Source: a virus
IMG/VR virus record: IMGVR_UViG_3300042296_000672
Coordinates: 1-20,873 of that record
DNA: 20,873 nt
Direction: 5' to 3' (one strand)
Positions within the stretch are counted from its first letter, which is position 1. Each line of letters starts with the position of its first letter. The notes beneath the pieces are model-generated. The model did no database searches and was not told the DNA's origin. It was given only the letters and a program-made list of their open reading frames with translations. Positions 1,417 through 20,869 of this stretch are shown here, one piece after another. The translations under genes were made by a program, and so were the position numbers.

Positions 1417-2448
1417 TTAAGTAGCAGAGTTGAATTTGAAGATACCATTAACACCAGCCAATGGGTCACCTGCCTTGTAGCCATCGGCATACAATTCGAT
1501 TTTGGTGAAGCGAGAAGATAAACGGCACTTCCAGATGTCACACTCAAGGTCGTACACCATCTTCATATCGTAGGTATAACCTGTGATTGGGTCAACGATT
1601 GTATTGTTTTGGAACGTTTCAGTTTGCTTCACATATTCGCCAACGTAGAAGTTTACGGGCACGAATTGATAAGCACCTGCCTCAAGTGCGATGAATTGAT
1701 TCACGTTGCCAAGGGCAGTTGCAACGGCAGGGTCTTCGAAATATGCGAATGAACCGCCACGACTCAAGTCGATTCCAAGCATGTTGGAAGTTGAGTAATT
1801 GCGGATACCAACGTATTCACGAAGTTCACCAACACCAATTGCCATTGGAATACCAGCAACACGAGCATCGCTCAATGCGTTTCTCATGATTACTTCACCT
1901 TGGTAATTTGCACCATTCATACCGCCTGTTGCAAGTGGTGCAACCATGTCGAGTGCGATTGGGTTTGTACCTGAATTTACACCATTGGCATAAGTACCGA
2001 ATTTGGTAATTACATCGTTCAATGCGATTGTGTTCATTTGAGTGAACAATGCATCAAGACGATTGCTTACGTCTTTGGCGAACCAAGAGGCTTGAGATTC
2101 GCACAATTCACGAACCTTGTAATCTTCAACTTGGAAATCCATGTACACTGAATCATCAATGCGATAGGTTTCTCCGTAGTTATCAGATTCATTGAATGGT
2201 CCTTCCATACAATCTGGAATACCTTGAGATACTTCGGCAGTTGTCGCACGCTTTTGGCGCATAACCTGCACATCTCTAATTTTACCATCACCTCTGTCGA
2301 TAGGCGTAACCTCAACTGATGATGTGTTGTATTGGTCAAGCAGAGCCAACAGAAATCCGTTCTGTGTGCGCTTTACTTGGGGTGCATGCTCTTTTGCAAG
2401 AGTCAGCAATTGCTCGTTTATAGCGGGGCAAATAGCAGTAAATGACAT
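1417..2448 (-). CDS. Putative major capsid protein
   Basis: A 343-aa protein called as the major head subunit from context more than from a recognised motif. It follows a scaffold-like gene, has the usual length for an HK97-fold capsid protein, and shows an acidic, evenly mixed composition with no signal peptide or transmembrane segment. The N-terminal 40 residues look helical, and a long helix-like stretch sits around residues 110-150. It has its own promoter and a leader of about 100 bases, as expected for the most abundant virion protein. The start at 2448 (MSFTAICPAI) lacks a Shine-Dalgarno sequence but has an A/T-rich leader typical of Bacteroidota. No maturation protease gene is visible nearby, so assembly probably relies on the separate scaffold. 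The main alternative is another abundant head protein. Confidence 0.7.
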   Translation of the reverse strand: MSFTAICPAINEQLLTLAKEHAPQVKRTQNGFLLALLDQYNTSSVEVTPIDRGDGKIRDVQVMRQKRATTAEVSQGIPDCMEGPFNESDNYGETYRIDDSVYMDFQVEDYKVRELCESQASWFAKDVSNRLDALFTQMNTIALNDVITKFGTYANGVNSGTNPIALDMVAPLATGGMNGANYQGEVIMRNALSDARVAGIPMAIGVGELREYVGIRNYSTSNMLGIDLSRGGSFAYFEDPAVATALGNVNQFIALEAGAYQFVPVNFYVGEYVKQTETFQNNTIVDPITGYTYDMKMVYDLECDIWKCRLSSRFTKIELYADGYKAGDPLAGVNGIFKFNSAT

Positions 2449-2532
2449 AATTATTGCGTTTGAAAATACTTGTTTTAATTTTCCCGATTCGAGGGCGGGA
2501 TAATGCCCTTAATGCGGAAGGTCGCCACCTAA

Positions 2533-2548
2533 GTTACCGAGCGGTAAC
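2533..2548 (-). promoter_or_regulatory. Perfect hairpin in the capsid mRNA leader
   Basis: A 6-bp perfect inverted repeat, GTTACC-GCTC-GGTAAC on the minus strand, lies just downstream of the predicted capsid promoter and so near the 5' end of that mRNA. A second small inverted repeat (AGGGC/GCCCT, 2492-2509) lies further along the same leader. Hairpins at the 5' end can protect a transcript from decay; that role here is inferred. Confidence 0.45.
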
Positions 2549-2552
2549 GCCA

Positions 2553-2586
2553 CAAATATACACAAAAATAAAACACCCGCAACAAA
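2553..2586 (-). promoter_or_regulatory. Bacteroidota-type promoter for the capsid gene
   Basis: On the minus strand TTTG (2586-2583) is followed after 22 bases by TATATTTG (2560-2553). This matches the known Bacteroidota -33/-7 pattern (TTTG or TTG, then TAnnTTTG), with spacing inside the wider range reported for Flavobacterium. Transcription would begin near 2547, giving a leader of about 100 bases before the capsid ATG at 2448. The -33 box lies inside the 3' arm of the terminator just upstream. Confidence 0.6.
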
Positions 2587-2604
2587 TAATTAATTCGTTA
2601 CGGG
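2564..2604 (-). terminator. Rho-independent terminator after the scaffold gene
   Basis: Read on the minus strand, an 11-bp stem (CCCGTAACGAA with TTTGTTGCGGG, two G-U pairs, 7-base loop; 2576-2604) is followed by a T-rich tract, TGTTTTATTTTT (2564-2575). The two wobble pairs are G-U only in minus-strand RNA and would be A/C mismatches in plus-strand RNA, so the element is directional. It separates scaffold transcription from the capsid unit. Confidence 0.75.
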
Positions 2605-2635
2605 CGCATCATGAAACCAACTTAAAATGAAAATA

Positions 2636-3463
2636 CTATTTCTTGCTACCTGATAGCGTGCGTTGTTTCTCTAAGTGTTGTTCTGCTCTCAATATATTTT
2701 GCTCAGCACGGGTCATAGGCTTGCTTGGTTCGCCTTTAGGTGCTGGTGCTGGGTTTGGATTCGGTTTATCATCTGCATTGCTTACCGCAAATATACCCGC
2801 AGTTTTACCTTCCAATACAAGTGCATCGGTTAATGACAATTCTTTCTTTTTGTCATCATACACTTTTGCCCCGTTTAGGTCGGTCAAAATTACGTTATTG
2901 CTCTCATCCAAATCAACCTTGTATTTCTTGAGGAAATCATTGGTAAAGCCCGGCAATACATAATTAGGTGCACCGTTGATTTTGTGCTTCGTCAATTCGG
3001 ATGTAATTACCTGATTTATTTTAAACTGCTTTAATTCAGTTTGAGCCTGCCCTTTTAAGGTAGGTATCACATTCTCGTCATACTCTTTTACCTTGTTTTC
3101 GTAGTCAATTACTTGTTGCTTCAAGTTATTGACTTGCTCAACCAAATCTTTGTTGCCCGACTTGTCAGATAGCTTGCCTTGTGCTAATTCCAACACCTTG
3201 CTGAAATCGCCTTTGACGTCCTTTATCTCGGCTTCGGTTAGTGAAAATATCTTCTTTACGGCAGTGGTGGCTTCGGCATAGCCTGCACCTTTACCCGCTT
3301 TGTGAATCTCGTCTTTTACCTTCTCTTTATAGAAGTTGACGAAATGCTCTTCGGTACTCTGAACGGATTCAGACACGTCGAAGGTATCATCGGCAGATTC
3401 CAGAGCCGATATAACCGACTCTGGAACGCCTAATGATTTAATGAACTCAATTGCTTTTGACAT
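2636..3463 (-). CDS. Putative head scaffolding protein
   Basis: A 275-aa highly charged, mostly helical protein immediately upstream of the capsid gene, which is the classic place for a scaffold. Residues about 85-150 (DLVEQVNNLKQQVIDYENKV and following) form a probable coiled coil. Residues about 225-245 are a flexible Pro/Asn/Ala linker, and the last 30 residues make a short basic helix ending RTLSGSKK. That layout of long helix, flexible linker and basic C-terminal helix is typical of phage scaffolds, whose basic tail contacts the capsid protein during prohead assembly. There are no serine-protease motifs, so it does not look like a fused protease-scaffold. The ATG at 3463 follows an A/T-rich 32-base gap without Shine-Dalgarno. 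A terminator follows the gene. Confidence 0.7.
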   Translation of the reverse strand: MSKAIEFIKSLGVPESVISALESADDTFDVSESVQSTEEHFVNFYKEKVKDEIHKAGKGAGYAEATTAVKKIFSLTEAEIKDVKGDFSKVLELAQGKLSDKSGNKDLVEQVNNLKQQVIDYENKVKEYDENVIPTLKGQAQTELKQFKINQVITSELTKHKINGAPNYVLPGFTNDFLKKYKVDLDESNNVILTDLNGAKVYDDKKKELSLTDALVLEGKTAGIFAVSNADDKPNPNPAPAPKGEPSKPMTRAEQNILRAEQHLEKQRTLSGSKK

Positions 3464-8859: not shown

Positions 8860-8943
8860 ATTAAATAGTGTTTAAATGTGAACTGAAATGAAACCTATTA
8901 TATGGCAATTAGCCTAATGCGCTGGGTGCGCTATGAATTGGTA

Positions 8944-8974
8944 CAAATATACGAAATAAAAACGCCCGCACAAA
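8944..8974 (-). promoter_or_regulatory. Consensus Bacteroidota promoter for the 185-aa gene
   Basis: TTTG (8974-8971), exactly 19 bases, then TATATTTG (8951-8944) on the minus strand: a full match to the Bacteroides -33/-7 consensus in sequence and spacing. Transcription would start near 8938, giving a leader of about 80 bases that contains a GCGC-ACCCA-GCGC inverted repeat soon after the start. The -33 box is the first four bases of the 3' arm of the terminator at 8954-8992. Confidence 0.7.
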
Positions 8975-8992
8975 TATAAATTTATGCGAGCG
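8954..8992 (-). terminator. Rho-independent terminator after the 388-aa gene
   Basis: On the minus strand a 12-bp stem (CGCTCGCATAAA wrapped around a 6-base loop with its partner arm; two G-U pairs; 8963-8992... 8964-8991 for the core 11 bp), then TTTTTATTT (8962-8954). As at 2564-2604, the wobbles are G-U only in minus-strand RNA, so it acts on the leftward transcript. It would stop read-through from the tail-tip genes into the putative tube gene. Confidence 0.75.
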
Positions 8993-9029
8993 CAACCTTT
9001 TAAACAATCACGAAAAAAAGTAACCGATG

Positions 9030-9061
9030 CAAAGATACATCAACATTGCTGATAATCCAAA
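9030..9061 (-). promoter_or_regulatory. Second promoter upstream of the 8954-8992 terminator
   Basis: TTTG (9061-9058), 20 bases, then TATCTTTG (9037-9030) on the minus strand, again a full consensus match. It overlaps the end of the 388-aa gene. Because the terminator lies only about 35 bases downstream of the predicted start near 9024, it would make an RNA of about 70 nt unless polymerase reads through. Confidence 0.45.
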
Positions 9062-20837: not shown

Positions 20838-20869
20838 CAAATTTACGAAATAAAACTATACCGCGCACA
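20838..20869 (-). promoter_or_regulatory. Promoter-like sequence before the small terminase
   Basis: On the minus strand TGTG (20869-20866, one mismatch to TTTG), 20 bases, then TAAATTTG (20845-20838). The six bases just before the box (ATTTCG) match those at 8952-8957 and 17686-17691, and the T-rich GTTTTATTTCG before it mirrors the terminator tail at 8952-8962. The window ends four bases further on, so any hairpin is cut off. Confidence 0.5.

Follow-up and report, generated by a model that had tools for sequence, protein, structure and literature searches.

The stretch of DNA analysed here (hereafter the window; 20,873 nucleotides of the IMG/VR virus record IMGVR_UViG_3300042296_000672) carries on its minus strand a gene for a 388-aa protein, with its stop codon at 9040, followed by a gene for a 185-aa protein. 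The features that lie from this stop codon onwards are:

8962 to 8993, minus strand: intrinsic-terminator hairpin of copy B, 14 bp with a 4-nt loop, sequence GCGCTCGCATAAATTTATATTTGTGCGGGCGT
8971 to 8974, minus strand: -33 box TTTG, within the 3' arm of the hairpin and 19 nt ahead of the -7 box (consensus according to PMC2483708)
8952 to 8961, minus strand: T-tract TTTTATTTCG, doubling as the promoter spacer
8944 to 8951, minus strand: -7 box TATATTTG (TAnnTTTG), found in all relatives
8860 to 8939, minus strand: predicted 5' leader of the 185-aa gene, 80 nt, with +1 at 8939 (box placement of PMC9723704)
8302 to 8859, minus strand: 185-aa virion-module gene, the first gene downstream of the promoter; tail tube by position only

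The hairpin starts 47 nt after the stop codon of the 388-aa gene, and as RNA it folds at -20.4 kcal/mol (z -5.86), a value equalled by none of 200 shuffled sequences. A stable G+C-containing hairpin, an immediate T-tract and a same-strand gene upstream are together the sequence marks of an intrinsic terminator. The same bases hold an exact promoter match, TTTG-N19-TATATTTG, with both the -7 (TAnnTTTG) and the -33 (TTTG, N19) boxes of a Bacteroidota sigma-A (sigma-ABfr) promoter; the published consensus for this primary sigma factor is TTTG at -33 and TAnnTTTG at -7, with the -33 box required for full activity (PMC2483708, PMC7366714). The terminator-promoter element before the 185-aa gene, which the first-pass annotation had described as the second of its kind in the window, is thus confirmed (hairpin 8993–8962, T-tract, TATATTTG), with two adjustments of detail: the 3' arm starts ATTTG rather than TTTG, and the element extends to 8993 rather than 8992.

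The sister element (copy A) precedes the gene for the probable capsid protein:

2573 to 2607, minus strand: terminator hairpin of copy A, ahead of the capsid gene
2553 to 2560, minus strand: -7 box TATATTTG, with TTG at N19 and TTTG (2586–2583) at N22
2449 to 2548, minus strand: capsid-gene leader, +1 predicted at 2548
1417 to 2448, minus strand: gene for a 343-aa protein, the probable major capsid protein judging by gene order

Both start sites (8939 and 2548) were predicted by placing the -7 box at -12 to -5 (PMC9723704). Gene order underlies the labels 'capsid' and 'tube'; upstream of the capsid gene, the gene at 2636–3463 gives a weak match to Phage_scaffold, family searches with the 185-aa protein returned no match, and PDB profile searches with the 185-aa and capsid proteins gave nothing credible. 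AlphaFold models of the two (pLDDT 46.5 and 32.6, respectively) were of too low a quality to serve in a fold search. The phage collection holds no cultured relatives for the DNA between 2400 and 9100, the portal, the 185-aa protein or the capsid protein, and the capsid alignment has no match among GTDB species genomes; a Bacteroidota-type host is suggested by the promoter type only.

Comparison of the two copies alters what had been supposed of their relationship. A spacing of exactly 19 applies to copy B (TTTG-N19); in copy A the full TTTG lies at N22 and only TTG at N19. The left arms, thought to be different, are so in part, since both open GCGC(C/T)CG, and the copies align with a score of 24.5 (1000 shuffles: mean 3.7, maximum 20.0), whereas alignments of the window-clade copies with elements of other clades score between -0.5 and 11. 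Because the A/B alignment exceeds both the shuffles and the pairings with other clades, the two copies, which had been claimed to be independent, probably are not; they look like diverged duplicates or converted copies, old, and made within the window's clade.

Relatives were collected by scanning IMG/VR with the capsid and 185-aa proteins, giving about 40 contigs that share the window's gene order, with amino-acid identities from 99–100% down to 51% (capsid) and 57% (185-aa). One of these, the 39-kb contig IMGVR_UViG_3300043436_002351 (L029, L049), has the capsid gene near both ends, probably reflecting permuted or redundant ends and a genome of about 37–38 kb. At the capsid site, a hairpin, a T-tract and TTG-N19(20)-TAnnTTTG are present in all 17 distinct upstream sequences (N19 in 16/17, N20 in 1/17), with the hairpin sequence swapped between clades and the promoter and its spacing retained. 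The TTTG lies in the right arm in the window's clade, and at the end of the T-tract (TTTTTTG) in distant relatives. All relatives have the -7 box and the leader before the 185-aa gene; an adjacent hairpin occurs there in most lineages, not all. Several non-homologous hairpins stand ahead of the same 185-aa promoter and leader (L010/L011; L028–L031; L057; L058): the arms are GCGCTCG..CGGGCGT in the window's clade, CAGCCGGG..CCCGGCTG or the compensated variant CAGTCTGGG..CCCAGACTG in L028–L031, CAGCCTCGG..CCGGGGCTG in L057, and CCCTCC..GGAGGG in L058. The idea of a selected terminator-promoter design therefore holds up, with the promoter always kept, a hairpin and T-tract at every capsid site and most 185-aa sites, and stems unrelated between clades. 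It had been staked on the pair recurring in related phages, which it does at all capsid sites among the approximately 40 contigs; the L012/L013 lineage has no adjacent hairpin at the 185-aa promoter.

In that lineage a gene has been inserted, the terminator stands ahead of the inserted gene, and the 185-aa promoter is preceded only by a T-rich stretch. TTTG at -33 before the 185-aa gene is absent from the L012/L013 and L028 lineages. Since L012/L013 lacks both and L028 lacks the TTTG, neither the hairpin nor the -33 TTTG is indispensable at the 185-aa promoter of these lineages. No promoter box separates the inserted gene (L013:1190-1720; about 100 aa) from the terminator hairpin (TTTTTTTTATTTATG) that it directly follows, and the gene must as a result be read through or made in another way.

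The turnover of the stems bears on a different reading of the inverted repeat, namely as an operator for a repressor or activator of the overlapping promoter, the RNA hairpin being incidental. The repeat does overlap the -33 region, a classical place for a repressor. However, in other clades it has been replaced by unrelated sequences whilst the promoter and leader persist, the T-tract invariably faces the promoter, and the -33 location shifts from the 3' arm to the T-tract; we regard an operator as very improbable. A terminator, in contrast, requires the T-tract to lie downstream of the stem in the direction of transcription, which is the arrangement in every case. The terminators' sequences are non-homologous between clades.

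The reading that we consider highly probable, from the sequence comparisons, is that the element, of 50 bp, combines an intrinsic terminator, which insulates the operon upstream, with an overlapping strong promoter for the host primary sigma factor (sigma-ABfr type). RNA polymerase arriving from the tail operon, whose last gene is the 388-aa gene, would form the hairpin and be released at the T-tract; transcription would begin anew at about 8939, using the -33 TTTG and the spacer contained in the same DNA. The 185-aa gene, the portal and the downstream genes would then form a separate, strongly promoted unit; the capsid gene has its sister element. The sharing of bases between terminator and -33 box would keep the arrangement compact, with each virion unit set on its own. 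That termination and initiation both take place here, and that they serve insulation and high output of virion proteins, we infer.

How far the pairing departs from chance was assessed at two scales. Within the window, TTTG-N17..22-TAnnTTTG occurs six times against 1.02 expected, a number reached in none of 100 shuffles. TAnnTTTG alone (26 against 22.4) and loosely defined terminators (13 against 18.2) show no enrichment; copies A and B are the longest two of these 13. Across ten records, a uniform rule for terminator-like hairpins returned 103, 20 of which are followed on the same strand by TAnnTTTG within 32 nt, nine-fold above the 2.2 expected from the box frequency. Nineteen of the 20 pairs lie at three operon starts: those of the capsid gene and the 185-aa gene, and that of the terminase small-subunit gene in distant relatives. 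Because the genomes are related, the 20 pairs are evidence of conservation and do not amount to 20 independent cases.

The arrangement also occurs outside the group. Among unrelated IMG/VR contigs, CGGGTTTTTTG-N18..20-TAnnTTTG has 54 matches. A CCCG..CGGG stem of 7 bp or more accompanies 21 (15 distinct); in a reversed-box control, the 22 matches included four (three distinct) with such a stem. On tRNA-rich phage contigs of 20–311 kb, the fused terminator-promoter heads a tRNA-Leu(UAA) unit inside tRNA arrays (L131, L136, L142, L148, L155, L164, L177, L184). In 11 of the 15 distinct elements outside the group the promoter is followed by GTTCTTTGACAT, a motif resembling boxA (antitermination?).

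These counts weigh on a simpler explanation, in which only the promoter matters, the hairpins are ordinary gene-end terminators and their overlap with it comes from compaction alone. Gene ends generally need terminators, the L012/L013 lineage does without an adjacent hairpin, and the terminase promoters of the near clade have no hairpin as far as sequence reaches, all of which would fit. Against this, the 19–20 nt from the terminator-supplied TTG to the -7 box have been held through hairpin turnover, and the pair exceeds the box frequency nine-fold and recurs in unrelated phages. Compaction by itself thus appears unlikely, albeit the least so of the alternatives.

As an element, the terminator-promoter fusion is a variant of known parts. 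It resembles the primary-sigma promoters of Bacteroidota (PMC2483708, PMC7366714, PMC9723704) in both boxes, the spacing of 19 and the AT-rich start context, but here the -33 box comes from a terminator arm or T-tract. With intrinsic (Rho-independent) terminators it shares a G+C-rich stem, a short loop, a T-tract and a place after the last gene of an operon, but the copy B stem overlaps a promoter and is rich in A+T towards its loop. In the T7-like phage LUZ100 the major capsid gene is preceded by a local promoter and followed by a terminator (PMC10134795), so that the capsid gene likewise has its own promoter and insulating terminators; there, however, the promoter is for a phage polymerase and the terminator follows the gene, whereas here a promoter of host-sigma type is fused to a terminator before it.

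Terminators adjoining same-strand promoters are also found in E. coli, where RNA polymerase has been seen in vitro, by single-molecule methods, to stay on the DNA after termination and restart at a neighbouring promoter (PMC6978380, PMC11347151). In comparison with these recycling sites, studied in vitro and over longer distances, the distance here is nil, the parts overlapping, and is conserved. By analogy, and more speculatively, the terminated polymerase may remain bound to the DNA and reinitiate at this promoter. The argument that recycling termination is of little benefit to phages with their own RNA polymerase (PMC11347151) would count against such reinitiation if this phage has one. The element nonetheless offers a natural system for asking whether a terminating polymerase passes to an overlapping promoter, and its compact, recurrent form provides a sequence signature of operon boundaries in uncultured phages. 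To our knowledge, transcription in Bacteroidota phages has hardly been mapped.

A further promoter match lies just upstream of copy B:

9030 to 9061, minus strand: P1, another match to the promoter consensus (TTTG-N20-TATCTTTG), where the 388-aa gene ends

A transcript from P1 (+1 about 9025) would meet the terminator after about 65–70 nt (about 65–95 nt when the corresponding units of relatives are included), making P1 and the terminator together a candidate small RNA or attenuator. Taken as the main function, this would mean that a short RNA ends at 8961–8952, read-through feeds the 185-aa gene, and the second promoter is secondary. P1 fits the promoter consensus, and its -7 box is retained in L013, L011 (TAACTTTG) and, following insertion, L010; tandem promoter-terminator units, two of them, stand ahead of the 185-aa promoter in L028, and the inserted gene of L013 has no box of its own. 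The -33 box of P1, though, falls within the coding sequence of the 388-aa gene, clades do not share the short transcript, and nothing else in the region is as conserved as the second promoter with its leader, so that we think this scheme improbable as a replacement for the insulating terminator with overlapping promoter. Units resembling P1 plus terminator are found at L010:3450-3755, L013:1190-1720 and L028:9660-10012.

Downstream of the promoters, both leaders contain predicted structure:

2548 to 2533, minus strand: first hairpin of the capsid leader, starting at +1
2530 to 2519, minus strand: second hairpin of the capsid leader
2509 to 2482, minus strand: possible H-type pseudoknot of the capsid leader, AGGGC (2509–2505) with GCCCT (2496–2492) and TCCC(G) (2500–2496) with (C)GGGA (2486–2482)
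8931 to 8919, minus strand: first hairpin of the 185-aa leader, GCGC ACCCA GCGC
8914 to 8904, minus strand: second hairpin of the 185-aa leader, GGC..GCC

In each of the 11 distinct promoter-leader combinations, the first hairpin of the capsid leader opens exactly on the predicted +1, a position that gives independent support to the promoter call. The hairpin's sequence varies by clade (GTTACC..GGTAAC, GTTACAT..ATGTAAC, GTCTGAT..ATCAGGC), with one pair lost in L013. The leader of L004 is 100% identical to that of the window over 99 aligned positions, with 58% identity at third codon positions of the gene; for L016 the values are 82% and 42%. In the distant clade, 97.9% of pair cells are paired and five pairs are changed on both sides, one position occurring as C-G, A-U and U-A. 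The covariation score of 0.205 (against 0.093) was reached by none of 500 shuffles, and slid partners all scored lower. RNAalifold on mixed-clade alignments returned no compensated pairs, owing to misalignment of the two clades within the stems, a problem resolved by counting the distant clade alone. The third stem of the possible pseudoknot (44-48/58-62) is invariant in that clade, and could be an alternative to the fourth.

The core of the capsid leader is found only ahead of this capsid gene, in 24 stretches (leaders of this kind include L013:7899-7987, L016:16199-16287 and 20 others); four GTDB matches to its pattern, one each in unrelated phyla, were taken as chance. An upstream peptide was rejected as the source of the conservation: apart from an ATG-TAA in L005, the near-clade leaders lack a start codon, the frame in L033 is cut short by an early stop, and the change of AGGTGGCGACC to AGGAGGCGTCC alters the peptide and retains the pair. 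A search of Rfam gave no match at the gathering score in the window, and nothing credible at E up to 5. The capsid leader is apparently a conserved folded RNA that is undescribed.

Several bacterial and phage mRNAs, for example those of ompA and T4 gene 32, have 5'-terminal stabilising hairpins and structured leaders. The capsid leader is like them in opening with a hairpin at the predicted +1, but differs in that the rest is conserved far beyond any stabilising need and belongs to no Rfam family. A tentative reading, to which we give slightly less than an even chance, is that it is a new structured cis-regulatory RNA (a +1 hairpin, another small hairpin, and either a pseudoknot or a two-state switch) that would stabilise the mRNA or control capsid translation, for instance by binding the capsid or scaffold protein. 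In this uncultured phage group the RNA would be delivered by a modular cassette of terminator and promoter, the 185-aa gene having a simpler leader. The capsid leader would as such be a candidate new RNA regulator of virion assembly, and together with the comparative pattern it makes the locus of more interest than an ordinary promoter call. In the 185-aa leader, the first hairpin is compensated between clades (GCGC..GCGC / CCTCT..AGAGG) and the second is invariant, evidence that is weaker, coming from six distinct rows; L100 matches this leader pattern in unrelated surroundings and was set aside.

At the edge of the window, a promoter of the same type precedes the terminase small-subunit gene (Sf6-type by Pfam):

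20838 to 20845, minus strand: -7 box TAAATTTG, with the predicted +1 at the A of the ATG (20833)

Since the predicted start coincides with this A, the terminase small-subunit mRNA is predicted to be leaderless. The arrangement TTTTATTTCGTAAATTTG-N4-ATG (20865–20833, minus strand) ahead of the gene is present in the window and in G005 (L125, minus strand).
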